This document shows, one piece after another, positions 1-47,520 of a stretch of 64,000 nt of DNA; the first letter of the stretch is position 1, and each line of letters starts with the position of its first letter. Location: the NCBI RefSeq assembly GCF_038630985.1, contig NZ_CP152049.1:3181501-3245500 (forward strand), in the 5' to 3' direction. A model generated the notes under the pieces. It saw only the letters and a program-made list of their open reading frames with translations. It was not told the DNA's origin and did not search any database. This stretch comes from Paenibacillus sp. FSL H8-0548. GTDB taxonomy: Bacteria; Bacillota; Bacilli; Paenibacillales; Paenibacillaceae. Position numbers and translations under genes: made by a program.

Positions 1-1
1 A

Positions 2-784
2 ACCGGTGCGGCGCCAGTAATCGCCGAAATCGCTCGTGAGTGCGGAGCTTTGACGGTTGGTGTTGTTACTCGTCCATTTACTTTTGAAGGACGTAAGCGT
101 TCGGGACAAGCTGAGCTTGGCATCGAAGCACTTAAGGAAAAAGTAGATACACTAATTGTCATTCCAAATGACCGATTGCTAGAAATCGTAGACAAGAAGA
201 CTCCGATGCTTGAAGCTTTCCGTGAAGCGGATAACGTACTTCGTCAAGCTGTACAAGGTATCTCTGATCTTATCGCTGTTCCAGGTCTAATCAATCTCGA
301 TTTTGCCGATGTAAAAACGATTATGACTGAACGTGGTTCTGCCCTGATGGGTATTGGTATCGCAACAGGTGAGAATCGTGCAGCTGAAGCAGCTCGCAAA
401 GCGATTATGAGCCCCTTGCTAGAGACGTCTATCGATGGCGCACGCGGTGTTATTATGAATATTACGGGTGGCAGCAATCTGTCTCTCTACGAAGTTAATG
501 AAGCAGCCGAAATTGTCATTTCTGCATCTGATCCAGATGTGAATATGATCTTCGGTGCGATTATCGATGAGGATCTGAAGGATGAAATCAAAGTAACCGT
601 AATTGCGACGGGCTTTGAGCACAAGCCACCTACACCTCGTCGTTCTCCACAGCAGCCAGAAGCGGTTGATACAAGACAACAAGGTACCACTAGTGGTGTT
701 AAGCCTTTTGGAGCGGGCAACACTTCCAGCGACCAACTGGAAATCCCAGCATTCCTTCGCAATCGTCCACGTAACGATCGCTAG
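2..784 (+). CDS. ftsZ: Cell division protein FtsZ, C-terminal part (5' truncated by window)
   Basis: Tubulin-like GTPase that forms the cytokinetic Z ring at mid-cell. The reading frame is already open at base 2, so the start and the N-terminal GTP-binding half lie outside the window; about 260 codons remain. The synergy (T7) loop GLINLDFAD, which inserts into the neighbouring subunit to trigger GTP hydrolysis, is visible about one third into the fragment. A variable linker rich in Pro, Thr and Gln follows. The protein ends in the conserved tail peptide [13 protein letters not shown], which in this family binds FtsA, SepF and other Z-ring partners. A terminator follows directly. Neighbouring spoIIGA, sigE, sigG and ylm genes are the standard Bacillales context. 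Confidence 0.98.
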
Positions 785-799
785 AAGCATTTCTAATTC

Positions 800-826
800 G
801 CCTCACCATTTATGGTGAGGCTTTTT
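800..826 (+). terminator. Rho-independent terminator of ftsZ
   Basis: GCCTCACC and GGTGAGGC form an 8-bp stem, followed by a T-rich tract (CTTTTTG). It lies 16 bases after the ftsZ stop codon. Confidence 0.9.
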
Positions 827-839
827 GTTGTTCTTTCAG

Positions 840-2071
840 AGAGAAAGCGGCGTATAGTGGAGCGCTAAAAGACGCTGTAAGCATGTATATGCTCTTACAG
901 CGAAGGAGTAACTGGTAACGGTGGCCTGTAAGCACATATACGTGCTTACAGGGTGAAAACGGCGCATGGGGTAGGAGGAAAGGACGCTGTAAGCACATAT
1001 ACGTGCTTACAGAGTGAAAACGGCGCATGGAGGAGGATGAAAGGACGCTGTAAGCACGTATATGCTCTTACAGCGAAGGAGTAACTGGTAACGGTGGCCT
1101 GTAAGCACATCTATGTGCTTACAGAGTGAAAACGGCGTATGGAGGAGGATGAAAGGACGCTGTAAGCACGTATATGCTCTTACAGTGAAGGAGTACTTGG
1201 TAATGGTGGCCTGTAAGCACATATATGCTCTTACAGCGAAGGAGTAACCGGTAACGGTAGTCTGTAAGCACATATACGTGCTTACAGAGTGAAAACGGCG
1301 CATGGAGGAGGATGAAAGGACGCTGTAAGCACGTATATGCTCTTACAGCGAAGGAGTAACTGGTAACGGTGGCCTGTAAGCACATATACGTGCTTACAGA
1401 GTGAAAACGGCGTATGGAGGAGGATGAAAGGACGCTGTAAGCACGTATACGTGCTTACAGCGAAGGAGTACTCGGTAATGGTGGCCTGTAAGCACATATA
1501 CGTGCTTACAGGGTGAAAACGGCGCATGGAGGAGGAGGAAAGGACGCTGTAAGCACGTATATGCTCTTACAGCGAAGGAGTAACCGGTAACGGTAGTCTG
1601 TAAGCACATATACGTGCTTACAGAGTGAAAACGGCGTATGGAGGAGGATGAAAGGACGCTGTAAGCACGTATATGCTCTTACAGCGAAGGAGTAACCGGT
1701 AATGGTGGCCTGTAAGCACATATACGTGCTTACAGAGTGAAAACGGCGTATGGAGGAGGATGAAAGGACGCTGTAAGCACGTATACGCTCTTACAGCGAA
1801 GGAGTACTCGGTAATGGTGGCCTGTAAGCACATATACGTGCTTACAGGGTGAAAACGGCGCATGGAGGAGGAGGAAAGGACGCTGTAAGCACGTATATGC
1901 TCTTACAGCGAAGGAGGAACCGGTAATGGTGGCCTGTAAGCACATATACGTGCTTACAGAGTGAAAACGGCGTATGGAGGAGGATGAAAGGACGCTGTAA
2001 GCACGTATATGCTCTTACAGCGAAGGAGTAACCGGTAATGGTGGCCTGTAAGCACATATACGTGCTTACAA
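840..2071. repeat. 112-bp tandem repeat array with about 22 palindromes
   Basis: About eleven units of 112 bp. Each unit carries two 26-bp palindromes with arms CTGTAAGCAC/GTGCTTACAG. The two linkers differ: about 25 bp (CGAAGGAGTAACYGGTAAYG...) and about 35 bp (GTGAAAACGGCGYATGGAGG...). Two palindrome classes alternate: a near-perfect one with centre ATATAC, and an asymmetric one ending GCTCTTACAG. The copy at 1435-1460 is a perfect 26-bp palindrome. Units differ by point changes only. The first is degenerate (GTAAGCATGTATATGCTC at 877-894) and the last loses its final G at 2071. Open frames across the array shift by one every unit because 112 is not a multiple of three, so none is a gene. 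The function is unknown; a protein-binding array or an expanded bacterial interspersed palindrome are both possible. Confidence 0.93.
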
Positions 2072-2222
2072 AGTTGAACGAGGTTGGAAGGTCATTAGAC
2101 AATTACATGCAATATTTATGACTGCTCCGAAAAAGGAACATTTAAACAAGAATGAATGAGTTGACTTCATACAAACAGAAAATGATTAACCATATTGAGA
2201 AATAGCAACGTTGTTCAACCCG

Positions 2223-2909
2223 CTATTGCTGAACAAATAAAGAGGATGGTTGTTCGGGATTTATTTTGTAACAGCGAATTCTTTGTGTACCCTTTCCTGC
2301 TGGAAGCAACAGTTGCTTGGTTACCATACTATGGAGCAGCTTTTGAGCATCGCGTTTTTTGATTTTCAAAAGATCAATGACGTCACTGGGGCGGATATGG
2401 TACTGTAAGCTTGAAGCGTGTTTTAATACTTCTCGTTGCAAGAAAATTTCTGCGCTGCTCACCTTTTTTCTACCAAGTAAGCTTTTGCCCATAAATTGCT
2501 GAAGAAGCTGCTGGCACATACGCGGCTTCTCTTTAATGTCATCGTAGGAGAAGCGTATTATCTTCCAACCATCAACAATGAGATGGTTTTGGCGCATTAA
2601 AGAATCGGAGAATTGCCAACGTGATATTTCAGCCGAATGCGTGCGATAACCATCAATTTCGATAGCAAGCTGTAAACCATCCTTCAAGTAGGCAAAGTCC
2701 AAAAATCGACTGCCATCACGGAAATCGGCAACTTCATACTCTGCATGTAGCCCGTCAAAATCATGGAAGGCAGGATACCAAATTTTTTCTGTAAACAGTT
2801 TTTCAGCATGACCATGCCCTTCTATTAGCCTACGTTTGCGCTCTCCTTTATAGTTTTTTATCTGCGTGTCCAGCCAGTGTCCGTAATTCACTTCAAACGT
2901 CATGTCCAT
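2223..2909 (-). CDS. DUF559-type PD-(D/E)XK nuclease-like protein
   Basis: A 228-residue protein resembling the DUF559 / very-short-patch-repair-like endonuclease fold. Around residues 68-91 the pattern RFLDFAYL...LAIEIDGYRTH supplies the expected Asp-71, Glu-84 and Asp-86 active-site residues. GWKIIRFSYDDI at 114-125 matches the strand and helix that follow in this family. The C-terminal ~60 residues look like a winged-helix segment (VIDLLKIKKRDAQKLLHSMV), perhaps for DNA binding. The ATG at 2909 is preferred because AAGGGAG ends 6 bases upstream; an in-frame ATG at 2942 lies inside a hairpin and has no ribosome binding site. Such proteins are often annotated as hypothetical; no substrate is known here. 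It faces the palindrome array and is divergent from spoIIGA. Confidence 0.75.
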   Translation of the reverse strand: MDMTFEVNYGHWLDTQIKNYKGERKRRLIEGHGHAEKLFTEKIWYPAFHDFDGLHAEYEVADFRDGSRFLDFAYLKDGLQLAIEIDGYRTHSAEISRWQFSDSLMRQNHLIVDGWKIIRFSYDDIKEKPRMCQQLLQQFMGKSLLGRKKVSSAEIFLQREVLKHASSLQYHIRPSDVIDLLKIKKRDAQKLLHSMVTKQLLLPAGKGTQRIRCYKINPEQPSSLFVQQ

Positions 2910-2925
2910 CTCACTCTCCCTTAGA

Positions 2926-2949
2926 AAATAAAAAAACCGCATACTGCGG
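2926..2949 (-). terminator. Terminator-like hairpin just upstream of the nuclease-like gene
   Basis: Read on the minus strand, CCGCA-GTA-TGCGG is followed directly by TTTTTTTATTTT and then by the ribosome binding site of the nuclease-like gene. The stem is only 5 bp. Its position between any upstream promoter and the start codon suggests attenuation, or protection from antisense transcription. No gene upstream on this strand would need it as an ordinary terminator. Confidence 0.45.
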
Positions 2950-3096
2950 GTATGGTTATCCCGAGTAAGCGGTGTGCTTCACTGCTTTACTTCTATATCA
3001 AATATCATACGATATTTTGTAGAGCTGAACAAGCAAATTTCTAGCGGTCGTGGCCGTATCGAAATTAAACATACTTGGCGGTTTTTATACTCCTAC

Positions 3097-3162
3097 TCGA
3101 CAAAAAAAGATATGTCATGCTGTCATGAATAGACAGACTTTGAAATAGGATTTTAATATACT
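3097..3162 (+). promoter_or_regulatory. Putative Spo0A-controlled spoIIG promoter
   Basis: TAGACA (3130-3135) and TATACT (3157-3162) are separated by 21 bp, resembling the unusually long spacer (22 bp) known for the B. subtilis spoIIG promoter. Upstream lies TCGACAAAA (3097-3105), the reverse complement of a Spo0A box core, and two direct TGTCATG copies (3113, 3121) that partly match TGTCGAA next to the -35. Assignment rests on resemblance and position before spoIIGA. Confidence 0.5.
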
Positions 3163-3230
3163 AGTGTCAATCGTTCTCCCGGGAGCCATTTACAGATCCG
3201 TGTATCGCCAGTTGCAGGAAGGTGACCGAA

Positions 3231-4151
3231 GTGGCTATTTATGTGGATGTGATGTTTCTAAGAGAGCTGCTCGTGGATGGTGCAATTCTATTAACTACCG
3301 CGTGGGTCCGTCATTTGAAACCTAGGCCGTGGCGGGTGTTAACAGCTTCTGCTGTCGGAGCTTGTTATGTCGTTTTGATGCTTTTTCCGCAATTATCTTT
3401 TTTATTTACGTTAATTGTGAAGGTCGGCATGTCGTTTTTTATGGTATGGATCGCTTTTGGCTTCTCCTCCTTGCAAAATTTTTTGAGAAATGTTGCGGCG
3501 TTTTATGCGGTTAATTTTGTTGCTGCTGGTGCGGTGCTTGGGATTTATTATCTGTTTATGCAAGGGTCTGGTGAGGTTTGGAGGACGATTACATTCGTAA
3601 ACGGCAGCATGCATGTAGAGCTCAAGATGGGATTGTTTTATTTAATTGCTGCGTTTTGCATCGGTCTGTATATATACCGTACTGTATTAACGCAAAAAAG
3701 AGAACGGGAGCTGGTGCAAACACATTTAGCAGAGGTGAAAATTACGATTGGAGATCGGACTCAAACCTGTGTTGGTCTAATCGATACTGGCAATCAGCTA
3801 TATGATCCGCTCACAAGGACACCTGTTATGGTGATGGAAGCTTCCTTATGGCAAGAAGATTTGCCCGAATCGTGGTTGAATAGCATACGAGATGCACAAG
3901 TGGATCGTCTCGTGGCGGGAATGGATCAACAGCCCTATTTTATATGGCAAGACAGGCTTCGTCTCGTACCATTCAGAGGTGTCAACCGGGGATCACAGTT
4001 CATGCTGGCGATAAAACCCGACGCGGTTGAGATAACTAGGGAAGGACAAGTTTTTGAAACGCGAAAGGTGCTTATCGGGCTTGACGGCGGAAAGCTAACG
4101 TCTGATGGAGCATATCGAGCCATTATCCATCCGTCTATGGTACAACAATAA
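3231..4151 (+). CDS. spoIIGA: Sporulation sigma-E factor-processing peptidase SpoIIGA
   Basis: Membrane aspartic protease that cleaves pro-sigma-E in the mother cell after the SpoIIR signal arrives from the forespore. The N-terminal half (residues about 5-150) is a series of hydrophobic segments. The cytoplasmic C-terminal half carries the catalytic aspartate in [11 protein letters not shown] (Asp about 185), the retroviral-type D-T/S-G motif of this family. GTG at 3231 is chosen over GTG at 3222 because GGAAGGTGA lies five bases upstream of the former, and the resulting 306-residue protein begins VAIYVDV like relatives (B. subtilis MKIYLDV). It sits directly upstream of its substrate gene sigE. 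Confidence 0.95.
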
Positions 4152-4188
4152 AACCGTATGCTTATACAAACGAGGAGGGATGGGCCAG

Positions 4189-4911
4189 ATGCTCGTCAAG
4201 TACAAATTAATCCTTCAGTTATATTATTATCGGATCATGTTTTTATTCGGATTAAAAAGTGAAGAAATTTATTACATTGGTGGAAGTGAAGCGCTTCCGC
4301 CGCCCTTAACACGCGAAGAGGAAGAATATTTGCTGGAAAAGCTTCCTTCGGGCGACACAGCTATTCGGGCAATGCTAATTGAACGAAACTTAAGGCTTGT
4401 CGTATATATTGCCCGCAAGTTTGAAAATACCGGCATTCATATTGAAGATCTCGTATCGATAGGCGCGATTGGTCTGATTAAAGCGGTGAACACATTTGAT
4501 CCAGAAAAGAAAATCAAGCTTGCGACCTATGCCTCGCGTTGTATCGAAAATGAAATATTGATGTATCTGCGCCGGAATAGCAAGACGCGTACAGAGGTAT
4601 CGTTTGACGAGCCGCTCAATATCGATTGGGATGGGAATGAGCTGCTTCTCTCAGATGTTCTCGGTACGGAAAATGATACGATATACAGAAACATTGAGGA
4701 GCAGGTTGACCGCAAGCTGCTTCATAAGGCGCTTGATAAGCTTTCTGAGCGGGAGCGGATCATTATGGAGCTTCGCTTCGGACTTGCAGATGGCGAAGAG
4801 AAAACACAAAAGGATGTTGCTGACTTATTGGGTATTTCTCAGTCCTACATTTCACGGCTGGAGAAGCGGATTATAAAAAGACTTCGAAAAGAATTTAATA
4901 AAATGGTTTAA
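4189..4911 (+). CDS. sigE: RNA polymerase sporulation sigma factor sigma-E
   Basis: Early mother-cell sigma factor, made as an inactive membrane-associated precursor and activated by SpoIIGA. The 240-residue product matches the usual 239. An N-terminal hydrophobic pro-sequence (about 1-27) is followed by [13 protein letters not shown], region 2 ([16 protein letters not shown]...[15 protein letters not shown]) and region 4 with the helix-turn-helix [20 protein letters not shown]. The ATG at 4189 is selected: GAGGAGG (4172-4178) is ten bases upstream, whereas the ATG at 4180 would leave only one base. It follows spoIIGA by 37 bases, in line with co-transcription. Confidence 0.97.
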
Positions 4912-4931
4912 AGGCCGCGTCCTGCTTGCAG

Positions 4932-5007
4932 TTGTCGAATGATGTCGCAATAGGAATAAAAAGACCTTCTCAGGAGATAATGTACAGTAATGTTTCTCCT
5001 TGGGAGG
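4932..5007 (+). promoter_or_regulatory. Putative forespore promoter and leader hairpin of sigG
   Basis: GAATA (4954-4958) and GGAGATAATG (4973-4982), 14 bp apart, resemble sigma-F/sigma-G promoter elements (GYATA / GGNNANANT). A perfect TGTCGAA, the Spo0A box core, lies at 4933-4939. TCTCC (4995-4999) can pair with GGAGG (5003-5007) of the sigG ribosome binding site across a 3-base loop. GGAGA at 4973 could instead pair with the same TCTCC. All of this is motif inference. Confidence 0.4.
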
Positions 5008-5015
5008 TAATCACG

Positions 5016-5798
5016 TTGACCCGAAATAAAGTCGAGATCTGTGGAGTGGATACCGCGAAACTGCCTGTCCTAAATAATGTCGAGATGAGAGAATTGTTTA
5101 CGGCATTGCAAACCCGCAACGAGTGGGCAGCAAGAGAGAAATTAGTAAACGGCAACCTGCGGCTAGTACTGAGCGTAATTCAAAGGTTTAACAATAGGGG
5201 AGAGTTTGTGGACGACCTATTTCAGGTCGGCTGCATCGGACTTATGAAGGCGATAGATAATTTTGACCTTAGCCAAAATGTCAAATTTTCCACCTATGCC
5301 GTTCCGATGATCATCGGAGAGATACGCCGTTATTTGCGTGACAACAATCCAATTCGAGTGTCTCGCAGCTTAAGGGACATCGCCTATAAGGCGCTTCAGG
5401 TTAGGGATAGCCTGACGAACAGAAATTCGCGAGAGCCAACTATTTTTGAAATTTCAGAAGCGCTAAACGTTCCAAAGGAAGATGTTGTTTTTGCATTAGA
5501 TGCGATTCAAGATCCGGTTTCTTTATTTGAACCGATCTACCATGACGGTGGAGATCCGATTTACGTTATGGATCAGATTAGCGATGAACGCAATAAGGAT
5601 GTATCGTGGATTGAGGAAATTGCACTTCGAGAAGCGATGCATAAGCTCAATGATAGAGAAAAAATGATTTTGTCGATGCGCTTTTTTGAAGGCAAGACGC
5701 AAATGGAAGTAGCCGATGAAATTGGCATCTCTCAGGCACAAGTATCTAGGCTTGAAAAATCAGCTATTCAGCAAATGCAAAAACATGTGAAATCGTAA
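5016..5798 (+). CDS. sigG: RNA polymerase sporulation sigma factor sigma-G
   Basis: Late forespore sigma factor that switches on spore protection and germination genes after engulfment. The product from the TTG at 5016 is exactly 260 residues, the length of the B. subtilis protein, and begins LTRNKVEICGVDT like it. Region 2 reads NLRLVLSVIQRFNNRGE...DDLFQVGCIGLMKAIDNFD; region 3 follows with NPIRVSRSLRDIAYKALQVRD; region 4 ends with VADEIGISQAQVSRLEKSAI. GGGAGGT (5002-5008) lies seven bases before the TTG; an upstream ATG at 4926 has no ribosome binding site and would add 30 unconserved residues. The non-AUG start and a possible hairpin over the ribosome binding site suggest restrained translation. 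Confidence 0.97.
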   Translation: MTRNKVEICGVDTAKLPVLNNVEMRELFTALQTRNEWAAREKLVNGNLRLVLSVIQRFNNRGEFVDDLFQVGCIGLMKAIDNFDLSQNVKFSTYAVPMIIGEIRRYLRDNNPIRVSRSLRDIAYKALQVRDSLTNRNSREPTIFEISEALNVPKEDVVFALDAIQDPVSLFEPIYHDGGDPIYVMDQISDERNKDVSWIEEIALREAMHKLNDREKMILSMRFFEGKTQMEVADEIGISQAQVSRLEKSAIQQMQKHVKS

Positions 5799-5801
5799 AG
5801 A

Positions 5802-5829
5802 AGCGGTGCCGCGAGGCACCGCTTTTTTT
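5802..5829 (+). terminator. Rho-independent terminator of sigG
   Basis: AGCGGTGCC-GCGA-GGCACCGCT forms a 9-bp GC-rich stem with a tetraloop, followed by seven T residues, a few bases after the sigG stop. Confidence 0.95.
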
Positions 5830-5904
5830 GTTGTTTAGGAAGCTATGGATTCTCCGAACCTGTTGATAACGATGCTGCGGCAGCAGTCGGAGAGCGGCTA
5901 ACGA

Positions 5905-6125
5905 AAGCTAACGGAAGCCAGAGACGTTAAAGTTCGATTTTTGGTTAGCGTCATATTTTAACGGAAGTGGGAGACGCTATTCCGCAGAAATGAAGCGAGA
6001 TCGTGCATGTAGGGTACAAATAGAGGCCTGTGCTTCCGTTAGAATCTTGAAATGAAAAATAAAGGCGATTTAGCGTCTGTGGTTTCCGTTAGAAGTGTGA
6101 GCTGACGCGTCTGCGATTTCCAATA
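5905..6125. repeat. Interspersed repeats TAACGGAA-N5-AGACGYTA
   Basis: The gap between sigG and ylmC holds two direct copies (5909-5929, 5959-5979), one inverted copy (6071-6091), an inverted half-site CTTCCGTTA (6033-6041) and a degenerate inverted copy near 6102-6125. The core is TAACGGAA, five variable bases, then AGACG(C/T)TA. Opposed copies could fold together in RNA or mark binding sites. No open frame or promoter was recognised in this ~400-base gap beyond these repeats. Confidence 0.7.
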
Positions 6126-6223
6126 ATCTCTTTTTTGAATGGAAGGACATTTTGGGCTAATTGCTCATATAGTTATAGGAGAGATACATGGACGATTACT
6201 CTAAATGAAACGTGGTGAGGGCA

Positions 6224-6505
6224 ATGAAAATATCTGATTTTCAGACGAAGGATGTTATTAATATTGTTGATGGAAAAAAGCTTGGTCAAATATCAGATTT
6301 GGAGCTGGATTTAAGACAGGGTCGCATCGATTCGATTGTTGTTCCCCAATACACTAAGTTTATGGGGATATTTGGCGGGGGAGGCACGGAGGTTGTGATC
6401 CCGTGGCGCAATATTGTGAAAATAGGTGCAGATGTCGTACTGGTGCGAATGGATGATACAAAGCAGCTCCGTTCCGAAGAGGAGGATTTGCACGTTCGCT
6501 CATAA
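6224..6505 (+). CDS. ylmC: YlmC/YmxH family sporulation-associated PRC-barrel protein
   Basis: A small (93-residue) single PRC-barrel protein of the YlmC/YmxH family. MKISDFQTKDVINIVDGKKLG is the family start and describes a beta-barrel with the typical GKKLGQISDLELD turn. IIPW-like VVIPWRNIVKIG closes the domain. The ATG at 6224 follows GGTGAGG by three to five bases and replaces a GTG at 6212 without a ribosome binding site. Members sit beside ylmD and ylmE in many spore formers; the biochemical role is not established, although PRC barrels often bind RNA or protein partners. Confidence 0.9.
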   Translation: MKISDFQTKDVINIVDGKKLGQISDLELDLRQGRIDSIVVPQYTKFMGIFGGGGTEVVIPWRNIVKIGADVVLVRMDDTKQLRSEEEDLHVRS

Positions 6506-6555
6506 CACTGTACACTGTTTTTATGTTAATTAGACAGAAACGTATTGCAATGTGA

Positions 6556-6691
6556 AAGGTTGCTGCGCAAACCTAAAGCTAATGCTTACGAAGCAGGTTT
6601 GCACAGCAAACCTAAAGCTAATGCTTACGAAGCAGGTTTGCACAGCAAACCTTAAGCCTACGCTTACGAAGCAGGTTTGCACAGCAAACCT
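6556..6691. repeat. 39-bp tandem hairpin repeat before pgeF
   Basis: Four hairpins AGGTTTGC-ACA-GCAAACCT (the first degenerate) recur every 39 bp, at 6556, 6595, 6634 and 6673. Between them is AAAGCTAATGCTTACGAAGC, which has its own small GCTT-ACG-AAGC dyad. The last hairpin ends nine bases before the pgeF ribosome binding site at 6700. The period equals 13 codons, so a minus-strand frame repeats a 13-residue peptide; with no ribosome binding site this is probably chance. Confidence 0.9.
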
Positions 6692-6712
6692 TTGAATAGA
6701 GGTGAAAGCCAA

Positions 6713-7564
6713 ATGGAAGCATTTGAACATTTGCAAACAGCGAAGGGGCCTTCGCTGTTTTTGCTGCCTGATTGGATGGCTCGGAACGAGGAGCTTACTG
6801 TAGGATTTACTGGCAGGGGTGGAGGAGTAAGCAAAGCTCCATGGTCTTCATTTAATATGGGACTGCATGTAGGCGATCAGGATCATTCGGTTATTGCCAA
6901 TCGGCGTTTGCTGACGGAAGCCATTGGATGGCCATTCGACGCGTGGACGTGCGCGGAGCAGGTGCACGGCAATGTCGTGCATCAGGTCGTGGAGACTGAT
7001 AAGGGAAGAGGCAGAGACTCTCTGAGCGATGTAATTAAGGACTGCGACGCCATAATGACAGATGTGCCTGGCGTGCTCTTAGCGTCCTTTTATGCGGATT
7101 GTGTGCCGCTCTATTTCTATGATCCTGTGCATAATGCCGTAGCGCTTGCCCACGCAGGGTGGAAGGGCACGGTGCAGCAAATTGCTAAAGTTACTGTTGA
7201 AGCGATGGGAGATGCGTATGGATCGGCTCCAAATACGCTGCTAGCTGCAATTGGACCATCGATCAGCGGCTGCTGTTATGAGGTTGATGGCGTAGTGATT
7301 GATCAGGTGCAGCAGCTCACTGAGAGGCTTGGACTTGAAGGAGAAGTAACTGACCATATGCTCAAACGGTCCGAGAATGGGAAAGCGAACTTGTACTTGA
7401 AAGAAATAAACCGACAGATTATGATAAAAGCAGGAATTTTGCCGATCCATATCGAATTAACACAGTGGTGCACTGGATGCAGACGGGATTTATTTTTTTC
7501 CCATCGCAAAGAAGGTGGCTTAACCGGCCGAATGGCCAGTTGGATCGGTATTCGGGAGAGGTGA
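6713..7564 (+). CDS. pgeF: Peptidoglycan editing factor PgeF (YlmD, laccase-like family)
   Basis: Cytoplasmic metal-dependent enzyme of the YfiH/YlmD family. In E. coli the homologue hydrolyses L-Ser-containing peptidoglycan precursors wrongly made by MurC; older annotation calls it polyphenol oxidase. The 283-residue product shows the conserved metal-site segments CAEQVHGNVV, DCVPLYFYDP, AHAGWKGTV and GPSISGCCYEV, and the C-terminal CTGC...FFSHRKEGG. ATG at 6713 is taken because AGGTGA ends seven bases upstream; an upstream TTG lies inside the hairpin repeats. It is followed three bases later by ylmE, so the two are surely co-transcribed. Confidence 0.93.
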   Translation: MEAFEHLQTAKGPSLFLLPDWMARNEELTVGFTGRGGGVSKAPWSSFNMGLHVGDQDHSVIANRRLLTEAIGWPFDAWTCAEQVHGNVVHQVVETDKGRGRDSLSDVIKDCDAIMTDVPGVLLASFYADCVPLYFYDPVHNAVALAHAGWKGTVQQIAKVTVEAMGDAYGSAPNTLLAAIGPSISGCCYEVDGVVIDQVQQLTERLGLEGEVTDHMLKRSENGKANLYLKEINRQIMIKAGILPIHIELTQWCTGCRRDLFFSHRKEGGLTGRMASWIGIRER

Positions 7565-7567
7565 AAT

Positions 7568-8287
7568 ATGTCATCTACATTTGAGAATCGCGTCGAGCTC
7601 GTTGAAGAGCGTATTAAACAAGCCTGCGAGCGTTCTGGACGCAGCAGGGATGAAGTTCACATTATTGCAGTTACCAAATATGTTTCGTTGAATACGACCA
7701 AGACAGCTCTTGAGCTGGGCTATCGTCATCTTGGCGAGAATCGCTGGCAGGATGCTCAGGTGAAATGGGAAGCGATTACCGAGGAATGTGACGTGAAGCT
7801 GAGCGAGCATCCGATTTGGCATTTCATCGGCTCATTGCAGACCAATAAGGTGAAAGACGTCATTGGGAAGTTTACATACATGCATTCATTGGACAGGCTG
7901 TCGTTAGCCGAAGCTATTGATAAGAAGGCATCACAGCTTGGCATTATCGTTCCTTGCTTTATTCAGGTTAATGTCTCAGGAGAAAACTCAAAGCAAGGTC
8001 TTGAACCAGAAGAGCTGCTTCCATTTGTAAATCAGCTTGAGCGATTCCATTCCATTAAGCCCATTGGTTTAATGACGATGGCGCCGTACGAAGCTGAGCC
8101 GGAGCAAACAAGACCAGTGTTTAGAGCACTTCGTGAATTGCGTGATGAAGTTCAGCAGAGCTCGAAGCATGCAAGCACGATCACTCATTTATCCATGGGC
8201 ATGTCGAATGATTTTGAAGTTGCGATTGAAGAAGGAGCGACATGGATTCGCCTGGGTACGATATTAGTAGGGAAAGAGGAGGAATAA
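7568..8287 (+). CDS. ylmE: YggS/YlmE family PLP-binding homeostasis protein
   Basis: Single-domain alanine-racemase-like barrel that binds pyridoxal phosphate and helps maintain B6 and amino-acid balance; no enzymatic reaction is firmly known. The 239-residue length is usual. IIAVTKYVS holds the PLP lysine (about residue 36), [13 protein letters not shown] and [11 protein letters not shown] are the family signatures, and [19 protein letters not shown] is the phosphate-binding end. GAGAGGTGAA precedes the ATG. The stop codon lies just before the sepF start, placing it in the pgeF-ylmE-sepF-ylmG-ylmH run. Confidence 0.95.
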
Positions 8288-43433: not shown

Positions 43434-43519
43434 AATGAATAAACACATACGAGTGAAAAGTATGGATCCTTCAGATCTGTTGAGGAAGGAGAAGAAATAT
43501 CCTTCTCCTCAAATTACGC

Positions 43520-43696
43520 TTATCCACTTATGTCTAGATTTCCGCCTAAGTTTGGTTGTACACTAAGTTCCATCATTTTTGCCATTTGCTGAGCTTGTTC
43601 AGTAGATTGCTCATTAGCAATTTTAAGAACACTTAATCCAACAGCTTGGGATAAGTTGTACTGAGCTAAGGATATTGATAGCGCTGCGATGTCCAT
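43520..43696 (-). CDS. yjfB: YjfB-like small putative motility protein
   Basis: A 58-residue protein, MDIAALSISLAQYNLSQAVG, then LSVLKIANEQSTEQAQQMAK and MMELSVQPNLGG, matching the YjfB family (MDIPALSM.LSQ...QVGLSVMK). In B. subtilis yjfB belongs to the sigma-D motility regulon; no molecular function is known. AAGGAGG lies seven bases before the ATG. A CCGATAT, as in sigma-D -10 elements, sits 38 bases upstream on this strand. Downstream, GAGGAAGGAG/CTTCTCCTC can fold at 43478-43512. Confidence 0.85.
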   Translation of the reverse strand: MDIAALSISLAQYNLSQAVGLSVLKIANEQSTEQAQQMAKMMELSVQPNLGGNLDISG

Positions 43697-43733
43697 GTGG
43701 TCCTCCTTGATGAATGATGATCTGACATTTTAT

Positions 43734-43740
43734 ATATCGG
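43734..43740 (-). promoter_or_regulatory. Possible sigma-D -10 element of yjfB
   Basis: CCGATAT on the minus strand, upstream of the yjfB start. The -35 (CAAA at 43759-43762) is weak and its 18-base spacing is longer than usual. Confidence 0.35.
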
Positions 43741-43822
43741 AAAATGTACTTGCAATTCTTTGCTAACAAGAAATTATTTTTAGTTAGAAGCTGAATTTAG
43801 AAATACATGGAAGGGGGAAGCC

Positions 43823-43939
43823 ATGTATTATGCTAAGCTGAGAAATGATTTTAGAGAGGCTTATCAAGTGGTTACCGAATTAGGGAAATTGAAGGGAACA
43901 CAATTGAAGAATAAATGTAGAGCCTTTTGTCAATCTTAA
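43823..43939 (+). CDS. Possible 38-residue small protein
   Basis: ATG at 43823 with GAAGGGGG five bases upstream opens 38 codons: MYYAKLRNDFREAYQVVTEL then GKLKGTQLKNKCRAFCQS. It is basic and helical, with two cysteines. It stops 35 bases before the CAP-lipoprotein start. It is probably translated on ribosome-binding-site strength; no family recognised. Confidence 0.45.
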   Translation: MYYAKLRNDFREAYQVVTELGKLKGTQLKNKCRAFCQS

Positions 43940-43974
43940 ACTCGATAACATCAATCGAGGAGAGGTTGGGTTTA

Positions 43975-44670
43975 ATGTTTAGAATTATTATTTTAGCGGC
44001 AATTTTATTGATAACAGGTTGTGGAGCTAATGCCAAGAATGATTTACCACCAAATCAAGTGACTCCTCAACAAACGCAAGTCGAGAAATTCGATACTAAA
44101 GCTCATACGATCACTAGGAAGACACAAGCTTCATCCATCGTTACATCGAAGGATGGGAAATCATCTATTTCGATGAAGCAGGTACCCAATACATCAACTA
44201 CAGATTGGTTTGATTGGTTTAATCGCGGTCAGGTTTCGGTTGAAAATCCAGCGAACCAAGCACCGGCAAAAACAGCACCGAATGAGACTTCAAAACCGTC
44301 CCAAACTCAATTCGAGCAACAAGTATTAGATTTGGTTAATCAAGAGAGAAGCAAAGTTGGGTTGAAATCCCTAGTAATGAATAGTGAATTATCGAATATG
44401 GCGATGGTCAAGGCTAAGGATATGCACGATAACAATTATTTTGATCATAATTCACCGAGGTACGGATCTCCATTTGATATGATGAAGGAGTTCGGGATCG
44501 AGTACAGCTCAGCGGGAGAGAATATCGCAAAAGGCCAACAAAGCCCGACACAAGTTATGAATGATTGGATGAATAGCCCTGGGCATAGAGCTAATATTTT
44601 GAAAGATAGTTTTACCCAAATAGGAATTGCTTATTATAACGGAGAATGGGTACAAGAATTTATTGGGTAA
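43975..44670 (+). CDS. CAP/SCP-domain lipoprotein (YkwD-like)
   Basis: A 231-residue lipoprotein: signal peptide with lipobox LLITGC (Cys-16), a Pro/Gln/Thr-rich spacer to about residue 115, and the CAP domain (QQVLDLVNQERSKVGLKSL, NYFDHNSPRYGSPFDMM, AGENIAKGQ, NSPGHRANIL, WVQEFIG). The His and Glu residues of CAP domains are present (FDH, GEN, GHR). YkwD-type proteins are secreted in Bacillales with no firm function. ATG at 43975 is preceded by GAGGAGAGG (about 11 bases). Confidence 0.92.
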   Translation: MFRIIILAAILLITGCGANAKNDLPPNQVTPQQTQVEKFDTKAHTITRKTQASSIVTSKDGKSSISMKQVPNTSTTDWFDWFNRGQVSVENPANQAPAKTAPNETSKPSQTQFEQQVLDLVNQERSKVGLKSLVMNSELSNMAMVKAKDMHDNNYFDHNSPRYGSPFDMMKEFGIEYSSAGENIAKGQQSPTQVMNDWMNSPGHRANILKDSFTQIGIAYYNGEWVQEFIG

Positions 44671-44686
44671 GAATCCTATACGTTCT

Positions 44687-44728
44687 AAAAAAGCCGCTTA
44701 GCGAATTTTGAATTCGCAAGCGGCTTTT
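44687..44728 (+). terminator. Terminator of the CAP-lipoprotein gene
   Basis: AAGCCGCTT and AAGCGGCTT with inner GCGAATT/AATTCGC, then TT-rich sequence. Confidence 0.9.
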
Positions 44729-44813
44729 GATCGTTACGGTGTGATGATCTCTCGAGTCTTACCAAGCCACGAGAGGCAAGAAAAAGGATCACTGTTCGAT
44801 ACTCACTAGGTGG

Positions 44814-45043
44814 CTCATTTGGCTGGAAAGTGTATGAATAGATTTATTTATTAGATCTATTCCTGCGCTCTGAGCTAATTCGGAGGATTTAGAGCTAAAA
44901 ATTAGCTTTATTTCATCGTAGAGAGGGCATTAAGTGCTCATTTGGCTGGAAAGTGTGTTAATAGATCTATTTATTAGATCTATTCCTGCGCTCTGAGCTA
45001 ATTCGGAGGATTTAGAGCTAAAAATTAGACTTATTTCACCGTA
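44814..45043. repeat. Two 107-bp direct repeats
   Basis: Copies at 44814-44920 and 44937-45043 are about 93% alike, offset by 123 bp. Each contains AATAGATCTA-TTTAT-TAGATCTATT (imperfect in copy 1) and a GAGCTAA / TTTAGAGC dyad. The surrounding ~890 bases (44671-45562) hold no convincing gene except the tRNA on the other strand; a 23-codon minus-strand frame near 45108-45182 lacks a ribosome binding site. Confidence 0.9.
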
Positions 45044-45230
45044 CTCCAGTGGCATCCGGCGTCTCTTGTGATATTTAGACCTTCTAACAGTTAGGCGTTG
45101 AATGACCGCGGCTGGACATACGCATCAAAACGCACGATCTTTCCGTAAGAGCGATGCTTGACCATCTTTAATCGGAATTGAACAGTCGAATTTCAATCGT
45201 AATAATGGATGACTATGAGTCATAGAAAGC

Positions 45231-45258
45231 AAAAAGTCCTTACAGTGTAAGGACTTTT
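45231..45258 (-). terminator. Terminator of tRNA-Val
   Basis: On the minus strand, AAAAGTCCTTAC and GTAAGGACTTTT pair around CT, followed by T residues, six bases after the tRNA. Confidence 0.85.
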
Positions 45259-45263
45259 CTGTA

Positions 45264-45336
45264 TGATCTGAACAGGGTTCGAACCTGTGACCCCTACCCT
45301 GTCAAGATAGTGCTCTCCCAGCTGAGCTACCAGATC
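45264..45336 (-). tRNA. tRNA-Val (GAC)
   Basis: A 73-nt cloverleaf on the minus strand: acceptor GATCTGG/TCAGATC, D-arm TAGCTCAGCTGGGAGAGC, anticodon stem CTATC/GGTAG with loop TTGACAG (anticodon GAC), T-arm ACAGGTTCGAACCTGT. CCA is not encoded. Confidence 0.93.
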
Positions 45337-45357
45337 GTATTAGCGGCGACAATTAGT

Positions 45358-45386
45358 AATATATCAGAAGCATAGAGTTAAGTCAA
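45358..45386 (-). promoter_or_regulatory. Sigma-A promoter of tRNA-Val
   Basis: On the minus strand TTGACT (45386-45381) and TATATT (45363-45358) are exactly 17 bp apart, about 22 bases before the tRNA. Confidence 0.85.
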
Positions 45387-45562
45387 CACTTTTTGGGGAT
45401 TTTTTCTTATAGAACTTTGATAATAATCTGCTTGCTAATAACGTCAACGTTTTAAAACCTGAGCTTTTATTATTGGCTAGGATGGGAGGTATGAATTATT
45501 GATGTATACGCAACCATTAATAAGCGGAACTATATAATGAAATCTTCATTTAATGCCATTAA

Positions 45563-45730
45563 TTAACGCGATCTCTTCGCTAAGCGCCCAGAATATTCAT
45601 TTAAGAGCTTGTCTAGCTCTTGACTGATTTTGACAACAGCATGATCTGTGAAATTGTTGCAGGCTTCAAATAAAAGAACCATTTCTGCTCTTAAATCTTC
45701 GATCTTCTGTTGTGAAAAATGGTTGTCCAT
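45563..45730 (-). CDS. Spo0E-family aspartyl-phosphate phosphatase
   Basis: A 55-residue protein with the Spo0E signature SQELDKLLNEY (residues about 36-46) in a two-helix hairpin: QKIEDLRAEMVLLFEACNNF then DHAVVKISQELDKLLNEY. Family members remove the phosphate from Spo0A~P and so delay sporulation. GGAGGGA lies five bases before the ATG. It stands alone; which response regulator it acts on cannot be told from sequence. Confidence 0.85.
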   Translation of the reverse strand: MDNHFSQQKIEDLRAEMVLLFEACNNFTDHAVVKISQELDKLLNEYSGRLAKRSR

Positions 45731-45858
45731 TATAATCCCTCCAACTTTTCATTTGTTAGTATTAGAATAAACGAAGGTTGTTAGAACTTTTTCAAATAGA
45801 AATTAGGTTTATGTTAGTTTTTTGAACAACTAATCGAATAAAGATAAGTGGGATGAAA

Positions 45859-45891
45859 TACCCCCAAAGGCAAATAAGCCTCTGGGGGTTC
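45859..45891 (+). terminator. Orphan terminator-like hairpin
   Basis: ACCCCCAAAGGC and GCCTCTGGGGGT pair with one mismatch, then TCTATTT. No gene on the plus strand precedes it within 1 kb except the CAP-lipoprotein gene, which has its own. Confidence 0.5.
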
Positions 45892-46119
45892 TATTTATGC
45901 TTGCATTAATATAAATGACTGTCAGCGTTAGTCGATTTCCCGCATAAGCAATTATGCTGCTGGAATTTCCACCATACACCTCCTAATTATGTTATCGGCA
46001 GATATGTGGATTTTTTTTATATCTATTTTATTTTTTATATCAGCATAATGCTTGAGTCAAATACTAAACAAAAAATTTTCCGCATATCTTTAAAGAAAGC
46101 GCGCAGGAGGCGGTTTCTG

Positions 46120-46287
46120 TTGGCAGCAGAGTATGCTTATTTAGCCATATGGCTAGCGGGTATGTTTGGCATTATCGGTATTGTCATTGGTGCTGTGGCG
46201 AGGTTTACTATTTATGATTCCCTTGCTCATGATGAGCAATTAGTCTGGCGAAGGAAGCTTCCAGCAGATGCGTATAATGAGAAATGA
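46120..46287 (+). CDS. Small single-pass membrane protein, hypothetical
   Basis: From a TTG at 46120 with AGGAGG nine bases upstream, 55 residues are encoded: LAAEYAYLAIWLAGMFGIIG then IVIGAVARFTIYDSLAHDEQ, one transmembrane segment (about 8-28) and a polar tail. The same frame opens at 46006 and would give 93 residues with a basic extension, but that start has no ribosome binding site. I do not recognise the family. Confidence 0.5.
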   Translation: MAAEYAYLAIWLAGMFGIIGIVIGAVARFTIYDSLAHDEQLVWRRKLPADAYNEK

Positions 46288-46299
46288 AAAGAGATACGG

Positions 46300-46341
46300 A
46301 AATCCGGCGATCGCATACGATGCGAATACGTCGGATTTTTT
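46300..46341 (+). terminator. Terminator of the small membrane protein gene
   Basis: AAATCCGGCG and CGTCGGATTT with an inner TCGCAT-ACG-ATGCGA hairpin, then six T residues. Confidence 0.85.
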
Positions 46342-46440
46342 GATTTTTCAGACCTAAAAGAACTTTGATTAATTTATCGAAGAAGGGGCATCATAAAAAT
46401 TGGATTTACATTTTCTGAATTCGAGAGGAGCTAGGAAAAC

Positions 46441-46692
46441 ATGAGCGAGATTACAGGCGGGCAGGATACGAGAGAGCAAATCGTTGCAGTGCAAAAGAAT
46501 GGAGACGGCGATCTGACTGCATTCAAAACGACAAATGGTCGCGTTCTTGATTATGCTTCTGCGCTGGAAGAAGTGCAAGCAGGACATATTGCGGGCGTTA
46601 ACACGTTCAAAGGCAAGGATGGAGAATTTTATATCCGAGGTGACGCAGACGGAGATCCGACTAACAATCTGGATCAGCTGCCAATCTTCTAA
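46441..46692 (+). CDS. DUF3892 domain protein
   Basis: An 83-residue protein whose whole length matches the DUF3892 pattern: EQIVAVQKNGDGDLTAFKTT, GRVLDYASALEEVQAGHIAG, NTFKGKDGEFYIRGDADG. GAGAGGAG is ten bases before the ATG. Function unknown; small stand-alone members are widespread in Bacillales. Confidence 0.85.
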   Translation: MSEITGGQDTREQIVAVQKNGDGDLTAFKTTNGRVLDYASALEEVQAGHIAGVNTFKGKDGEFYIRGDADGDPTNNLDQLPIF

Positions 46693-46747
46693 GAAAAATA
46701 ATTAATGTGATAAAATAATTGTTGAATTGCTGCCTAAAGGGTGGAAA

Positions 46748-46792
46748 TAAGGAAGGCGCCGCATGATTGGCATGTAGGCGCCTTCCTTAATT
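46748..46792. terminator. Bidirectional terminator between DUF3892 and MBL genes
   Basis: TAAGGAAGGCGCC and GGCGCCTTCCTTA form a perfect 13-bp stem. Confidence 0.9.
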
Positions 46793-47520
46793 TAATTGAT
46801 TTCATATTTTTCATGCTGCTCGACAATACGCATATGGCCTGTACGGCCTTTATACTGCTCTATCGCGTCTCCATAGTGCATAAGCCAGGTTTTCTTCTGC
46901 AATGCCTCTGGAAGCTTTAGAAGCTCCTCTAGGGAAGCGTGAACGACGCCTGGTGCTTCCAACTGGCAATCGTGATAAATAGTCGTGACGCCTTCATCAG
47001 ACAGCTGTTGAAGAAGAGAAGGGTCAAAACGCATATCAGCTGAATAGAAGAAGTGATGATTGAAAATAAAGGAATAGCTTGGCTTATTCGGGATGTGCTT
47101 CGTTTGCAGCAGCCTTACCGTTAGCCCTGAATTCAGCTGAATATCTTTATTTGGGGCAAGTGGACGAACCTCGAAAAAATCTTCTAGCGTATTCAGCGAC
47201 CCCTGTGTCAATCCACCGCGCAGCGTGTTCTCCCATAAAGGCTCCACAAGTGACTCCGCAAGGTACAAGATAGGCTTCCGATTATATTTGAACATCATTT
47301 GAAACGCGTACTCTTCCAATCCGCCAACGTGGTCACCGTGAATGTGACTGATTAATACCGCATCAAGTTCAGGAAAGGAGAGCCCTTGTTCGTGGAGCGC
47401 TTTAGGCAAAGTAATTCCGCAATCAACAAGCAGCTTATAGTTGTTCGCTTCAATAATGGCATTATTATTATCGTACTTTTTTGCAAAAGCACTACCTGTT
47501 CCAATCATTGTTATGTACAA
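46792..47520 (-). CDS. Metallo-beta-lactamase-fold hydrolase
   Basis: A 242-residue MBL-fold protein with the zinc motif SHIHGDHVGG (HxHxDH, about residues 59-64), a further His in LLQTKHIPNK (about 147), YSADMRFD (metal Asp) and a late MHYGD. The architecture is like RNase Z/YhfI-type phosphodiesterases. The start is TTG at 47520 since AGGAGG lies seven bases upstream. Terminator-type stem lies at its 3' end. Substrate not known. Confidence 0.88.
   Translation of the reverse strand: MYITMIGTGSAFAKKYDNNNAIIEANNYKLLVDCGITLPKALHEQGLSFPELDAVLISHIHGDHVGGLEEYAFQMMFKYNRKPILYLAESLVEPLWENTLRGGLTQGSLNTLEDFFEVRPLAPNKDIQLNSGLTVRLLQTKHIPNKPSYSFIFNHHFFYSADMRFDPSLLQQLSDEGVTTIYHDCQLEAPGVVHASLEELLKLPEALQKKTWLMHYGDAIEQYKGRTGHMRIVEQHEKYEIN

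Follow-up and report, generated by a model that had tools for sequence, protein, structure and literature searches.

Arrays of TA-anchored palindromes accompany a family of small predicted nucleases in Paenibacillales

A 22-copy array of short palindromes in the genome of Paenibacillus sp. FSL H8-0548 belongs to the predicted nuclease gene beside it, not to ftsZ or spoIIG. The array lies within the window, by which we mean the whole 64,000-nucleotide stretch analysed here (contig NZ_CP152049.1, positions 3,181,501 to 3,245,500), and the gene encodes a member of a family in Paenibacillales, small predicted nucleases that join a Vsr/DUF559-type PD-(D/E)XK domain to a winged helix. The pairing of copies of this nuclease with palindromes of their own is well supported, and appears to be a novel type of enzyme-repeat partnership. 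Our preferred reading, to which we give a probability of roughly 0.6, is that the nuclease family is partnered with its own TA-anchored palindromes, which it would bind and cut or nick, repair then expanding, homogenising and at times spreading the repeats. A stronger version, in which each nuclease recognises its own TA-anchored palindrome, cut-and-repair copying makes and spreads the arrays without a transposase, and specificity and sites co-evolve, we hold at slightly worse than even odds.

The array occupies 875..2071 on the minus strand, the sense of the nuclease gene, and consists of 22 palindromes of 26 bp (CTGTAAG-N12-CTTACAG, with a TA...TA span of 20 bp) separated by linkers of 25 nt and 35 nt, with a period of 112 bp. 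A preliminary description of about 22 palindromes of 26 bp in 112-bp units had the count and the period right but placed the start at 840; judged by eye against the other linkers, 840..874 (minus strand) is a degenerate long linker, the last of the array. The perfect copy that it singled out, at 1435..1460 (strand not assigned), proves to be the only perfect palindrome in the array. Two arm classes and two linkers alternate, though not strictly as first claimed, since two long linkers are consecutive at 926/987 and two short ones at 1160/1211, where the palindrome at 1211 is a hybrid of both arm classes. CGTC follows many class A palindromes of this array. Because the linkers are conserved from unit to unit, with no unique spacers, the array is not a CRISPR, in agreement with the preliminary description. 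Protein coding was likewise rejected, the 112-bp unit not being a multiple of three and the minus-strand frames reaching only 71-98 aa. A genome-wide search for the palindrome core, which had been proposed at the outset, found 31 exact copies of CTGTAAG-N12-CTTACAG at four places in the whole 7.35-Mb genome and 0 of the reversed control, so the array is not due to chance; 21 of these copies are in the window array, whose 22nd palindrome has one mismatch. A second array, with other arms and the same 61/51 spacing, lies at genome position 1,916,562 (L016), and a third, longer one was detected near 4,509,660 (L019) when mismatches were allowed.

The long ORFs at 1-6000 of the window are presumably ftsZ, the nuclease gene, spoIIGA and two sigma factor genes. 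The array had been placed between ftsZ and spoIIG, which is correct for the region but passes over the nuclease gene (2223..2942, minus strand) that separates it from spoIIGA and points its 3' end towards the array. The best spoIIGA matches listed for this genome come from Paenibacillus, P. paridis and P. luteus among them, at 88-94% identity.

The nuclease has a predicted N-terminal Vsr/DUF559/MTES_1575-like PD-(D/E)XK domain and a predicted C-terminal winged helix. In the 239-aa frame the first ATG (2942) falls inside the leader terminator described below, and the database form has 226 aa; the true start is therefore probably near 2903-2909. The window protein itself scores below the curated cut-offs for MTES_1575 (22.6 bits against 38.2) and DUF559 (17.4 bits against 20.6); across 87 homologues, Pfam matches at E<=0.01 number 81 for MTES_1575 and 80 for DUF559, and D69, E82, D84 and H89, which we take to be the catalytic residues of the nuclease domain, are invariant. 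A structure-model search, chiefly of residues 148-226, assigned the winged helix a MarR/IclR/Z-alpha-like fold, while a Foldseek comparison of the model with the PDB returned no match at E<=0.001; as the first of these searches concerned chiefly residues 148-226, the nuclease domain may still have a known fold. An NCBIfam scan of 15 homologues gave one weak match (1/15), and database names for the family vary ('DNA-binding response regulator', 'DUF559 domain-containing'). The family occurs in 51 of 60 sampled genomes. Seven of its genes are in the window genome, with repeats downstream of five; the paralogues L110 and L112 lack an array. At L113, about 3473-5250 in the nuclease sense, the nuclease 3' end and its flank are tandemly duplicated, making three copies in total. 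A full-length close relative (297 bits) is also found in a 1.6-Mb genome from another family of the phylum (L270, genome G187), perhaps through horizontal transfer or contamination, and in three distant genomes (L273, L274, L275) the nuclease domain lies within open frames of ~750-770 aa.

The tie between gene and array was first apparent at the ftsZ-spoIIGA site of other Paenibacillus, where the best 80 of 189 loci were compared and 78 were measurable. Tandem arrays with a period of 51 or 111-113 bp, a criterion chosen after viewing the repeat results, occur at 9 of the 17 loci that contain nuclease sequence and at 0 of the 61 that lack it (Fisher p 1.3e-7). Where 208-234 nuclease residues are matched an array is present at 8 of 11 loci, and where 50-144 are matched at 0 of 5; at L037 the nuclease is split into two pieces on the opposite strand and a 51-bp repeat lies at its 5' side. 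The arms at this site vary by species (TAAGCAC, TAAGAAC, TAAGCGC, TAAGGCTG, TAAGGTAC and others) and the spacing is constant. The preliminary description had taken absence of the palindrome from related genomes, with no sequence constraint, as a sign of neutral slippage; several relatives instead have arrays built on the same plan but with other arms. It had also given weight to the position between ftsZ and spoIIG. The array follows the nuclease gene, whose 77 copies fall into 33 synteny groups, and we therefore rejected a special tie to ftsZ/spoIIG; the ftsZ site is one such group, with 15 copies. Other tandem repeats, with periods of 8-49, are found at 13 of the 61 ftsZ loci without nuclease. 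These repeats, like the tandem duplication at L113, speak for passive repeats, that is, for palindromes spread in MITEs or by slippage, with the nuclease a bystander or prone to land beside them, a reading we consider very improbable in view of the evidence that follows.

For a wider survey 79 distinct entries were read, comprising 60 fetched loci, the six paralogues, the ftsZ loci and the window. The 60 fetched loci had the top scores among the matches listed, several with internal stops or near contig ends being omitted; for flank and palindrome counts, copies were de-duplicated by 200 nt near the start and had to reach 150 bits and have flanks of sufficient length, and the three L113 entries represent one gene and two partial duplicates. 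The 400 bp downstream of the nuclease are repetitive in 40 of 72 copies and the upstream flank in 15 of 72, while the 3' flanks of other long ORFs at the same loci are repetitive in 4 of 150. At least three related palindromes are present downstream of 24 and upstream of 5 of the 76 copies; after base shuffling the count is 0 of 76. By either criterion an array accompanies 41 of 70 apparently intact copies and 2 of 8 broken ones, both of the latter being duplicated ends of one gene; the contrast between intact and broken copies is not significant (p 0.13). The other 29 of the 70 intact copies are without an array, and these, together with the upstream repeats, we count against the nuclease partnership. 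The spread over 33 synteny groups shows that the association is not a single inherited locus, and the association itself, with its bias to the downstream side, is difficult to reconcile with passive repeats.

The palindromes are also specific to their nuclease copy. For the 30 copies with at least two related palindromes, 650 comparisons yielded a single downstream case of palindromes of a clearly different class, the presence of the own class at 30 of 30 being by construction; cognate palindromes lie upstream of 4 of the 30. This specificity too argues against passive repeats. Over 38 copies, 8 of whose arm sequences are based on one palindrome, arm distance is correlated with nuclease-domain distance (Mantel 0.39, 0 of 2000 permutations as high). 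The correlation with winged-helix distance is lower (0.20; partial 0.10, p 0.03), so we rejected the winged helix as the better predictor of the arms, and this weaker relation is another point that we count against the partnership model.

Across classes the palindromes share a common design. A symmetric TA with a span of 20-23 bp is present in 22 of the 30 palindromes chosen as representatives (several come from the ftsZ site, so the 30 are not fully independent), and the next commonest dinucleotides reach 5 of 30. Centre-to-centre distances of 51-52.5 bp account for 10 of 22 group modes, the others lying near 61-63, 72 and 40. All spacing modes together favour a period of ~10 bp (none of 5000 random sets scored as high), but the signal is lost when the 51-bp mode is removed (p about 0.15), so that helical phasing is only suggested. 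That unrelated classes share the same spacing is a further argument against passive repeats. Conserved linkers, operator-like TA-anchored palindromes and an architecture recurring at many loci bear out the early suggestion of a binding array or an expanded element. They might instead mark a binding array without mobilisation, in which a host or defence nuclease is anchored or titrated by an operator or decoy array that slippage and unequal exchange expand. We judge this account unlikely though far from negligible: the operator-like sites of 20-23 bp with recurrent spacing, the predicted winged helix with its MarR/IclR/Z-alpha-like fold, and the arrays adjoining the gene, 15 copies being in the one synteny group at the ftsZ site, all agree with it, whereas titration alone hardly explains the dispersed populations of 71-241 sites described next, and a PADLOC scan of 15 homologues gave no clear defence match (among the matches listed, three weak ones to SoFic, best E 0.0017).

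Dispersed copies were counted at length for three palindrome classes; the window's own class is confined to few places. The class of paralogue L109, TAGATCTA-N5-TAGATCTA, has 95 copies in the window genome with <=2 mismatches, against 3 for the reversed control. One of its arrays is in the window itself, at 44839..45033 (strand not assigned), where four palindromes start at 44839, 44890, 44962 and 45013 with spacings of 51, 72 and 51; no nuclease gene is present among the ORFs of >=100 aa at 43500-46800 around it. The gene adjoining this array belongs to a multigene family. Twenty dispersed TAGATCTA loci were drawn from among the matches listed. Eight have exactly four palindromes at 51, 72 and 51, four more depart from this by 1 bp, three have longer arrays obeying the same spacing rule, and pairs exactly 51 bp apart are found at 19 of the 20. 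Between loci the median likeness is 0.875 for arms and 0.53 for linkers; since the arms served as search bait, the spacing is the one feature free of this bias. None of the loci fetched lies at the eight places in the genome with a nuclease match. In other genomes, the class of the nuclease at L190 has 241 copies in its own genome and 0, 0, 0, 0, 4 and 6 in six others, two of the zeros being congeners, and that of L165 has 71 in its own and 0-5 in seven congeners. Such genome-specific cognate populations again tell against passive repeats.

At the L019 site, the gap between an MFS gene and a methyltransferase gene is 1349 bp and holds 10 TA-anchored palindromes. In ten relatives with both genes the gap is 75-1121 bp without an array, with 0 palindromes in nine and one in L206; in one further genome a nuclease copy (L187) adjoins that methyltransferase gene. 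Five of the 20 dispersed TAGATCTA loci (L251, L258, L263, L264, L266) lie inside MITE-like elements of 319-481 bp with the terminal inverted repeat AGGCCTGTTGATTATCCA, and at L264 a TA target duplication is possible. These elements, which suggest that some of the spreading may be due to another transposase, also speak for passive repeats; against that reading, no terminal inverted repeats of this type were found at eleven own-genome loci (L016-L020, L109-L114) or in the window.

Upstream of the nuclease genes lies a conserved leader, which in the window covers 2932..2986 on the minus strand (from the leader alignment and model) and comprises two hairpins, a short one around AAGMA and then a terminator-like one with a T run. 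GAAGMAC occurs upstream of 58 of 76 nuclease copies, in two of which (L157, L161) the match is shown inside the gene start, and in 138 of 1529 background windows. Requiring a T run left 57 leaders, of which 52 were aligned, L028, L113, L153, L176 and L192 being omitted for their irregular ends. In these 52, 92% of cells form the four-pair AAGMA hairpin. Against 500 shuffles, which leave relatedness in, the hairpin exceeds all controls in cells paired, cells changed on both sides and covariation score, and fails on two of the five measures, namely pairs changed on both sides (3 of 4, reached by 496 of 500) and pair types (477 of 500); one slid version has more pair types. In the window genome the leader model, whose training set held six of the seven nuclease copies (not L113), ranked all seven first (E 8e-9 to 2e-4) among 150 scored of 1126 candidates, and nothing else was better than E 0.016. 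A candidate relic beside the L019 array, at E 0.016 and on the strand opposite the sense of that array's nuclease, was judged a plain terminator and rejected. The terminator stem often overlaps the leader hairpin, which suggests that the leader may be an attenuator of nuclease production.

The covariation in this leader, the position of the array directly downstream of the nuclease on the same strand, and a weak resemblance to the RAP domain in 14 of 87 homologues would fit a function in RNA, the palindromes forming hairpins at the 3' end of the nuclease mRNA or an RNA used or processed by the nuclease. We see only a slight chance of this. Mismatches within palindromes (22 G-T, 16 A-C, 37 of other kinds) do not clearly point to selection acting on one RNA strand, the TA anchors and the spacing are as expected of a DNA site, none of the eight nuclease-match places coincides with a dispersed TAGATCTA locus among those fetched, and Rfam at window 1-8000 returned only two sub-threshold miRNA matches, both inside the array (best E 0.069).

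Returning to the nuclease partnership, its steps of binding, cutting, repair-driven expansion, spreading and attenuation are ones that we infer. The nuclease would bind its own palindromes as double-stranded sites, probably one dimer per palindrome through the winged helix, with neighbouring sites bound together, and would nick or cut there. Repair from other copies might then expand and homogenise the arrays and sometimes seed new ones, MITEs may carry some palindrome sets further, and the putative leader attenuator probably keeps nuclease production low.

The pairing of an enzyme (RAYT) with a population of short palindromes (REPINs) is well known in bacteria, and the related BIMEs have short and long linkers. 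A distinct REPIN cluster beside each RAYT, and co-evolution of the two, have been described (PMC3116915), as have vertical inheritance of RAYTs and their retention at syntenic sites (PMC8049555). The nuclease system resembles these in its dispersed palindromes, fixed-distance pairs and own-class cluster beside the enzyme gene, and in that nuclease and palindromes co-diversify and the enzyme is retained at syntenic sites. The fit is limited by the intact copies without an array (29/70) and by the window's own class, with its 31 exact copies at four places. The enzyme is also different, a predicted PD-(D/E)XK nuclease with a winged helix where RAYT is of the HUH/Y1 type, and TA...TA-anchored sites, up to 22 tandem palindromes and an attenuator-like leader set the present system apart. 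Membership of RAYT/REP was rejected: the Y1 (HUH) tyrosine transposase profile PF01797 had 0 matches in the window genome at E<=0.001 (as a control, the profile matches 5 of 14 known genomes), and in 0 of 24 arrays do at least 60% of palindromes have a GTAG or CGTC tag. CGTC-tagged REPs are short dispersed palindromes without a known transposase (PMC3733652), and are similar in having no Y1 transposase attached; here, unlike there, no array (0/24) has CGTC at most palindromes, and an associated enzyme is present. The nuclease domain is probably of the same family as in Vsr-type, DUF559 and MTES_1575 restriction endonucleases. Giant MTES_1575 proteins include a Vsr-family endonuclease with winged helices (PMC3710099), while the nucleases described here stand alone, at about 220-250 aa, with cognate palindromes, and the Pfam scan of the family lists no HEPN, helicase or transglutaminase domain. 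Some dispersed arrays resemble MITEs in sitting within small elements with terminal inverted repeats; at the six paralogue loci and in the window such repeats were not found. A literature search of titles and abstract openings, with most subscription papers and all bioRxiv preprints outside its range, found no account of a nuclease paired with palindromes of this kind.

In its stronger version, the system would mean that evolution arrived at the REPIN-RAYT mode of existence a second time, independently. A second, unrelated enzyme class in such a role would show that enzyme-palindrome partnerships evolve repeatedly. It would also suggest a function for a variously named nuclease family, account for some of the intergenic repeats of Paenibacillus, and provide many natural nuclease-site pairs from which specificity might be read.

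Several further repeats were observed. At L250 a TAGATCTA palindrome has beside it TAGATGGAGAAATTCCATCTA, a second TA-anchored class, together with partial copies of the latter. Another repeat, TATTTCTCCGGAATGAAACGCGC...GCCGTTTCACCTTG, was recognised by eye at 4380-4500 of L016 and upstream of the L113 nuclease, with a similar one, GAAACG...CCGTTTC, at L220. In the window, 6567-6691 holds 3.2 copies of a 39-bp unit carrying AAACCT...AGGTTT inverted arms.
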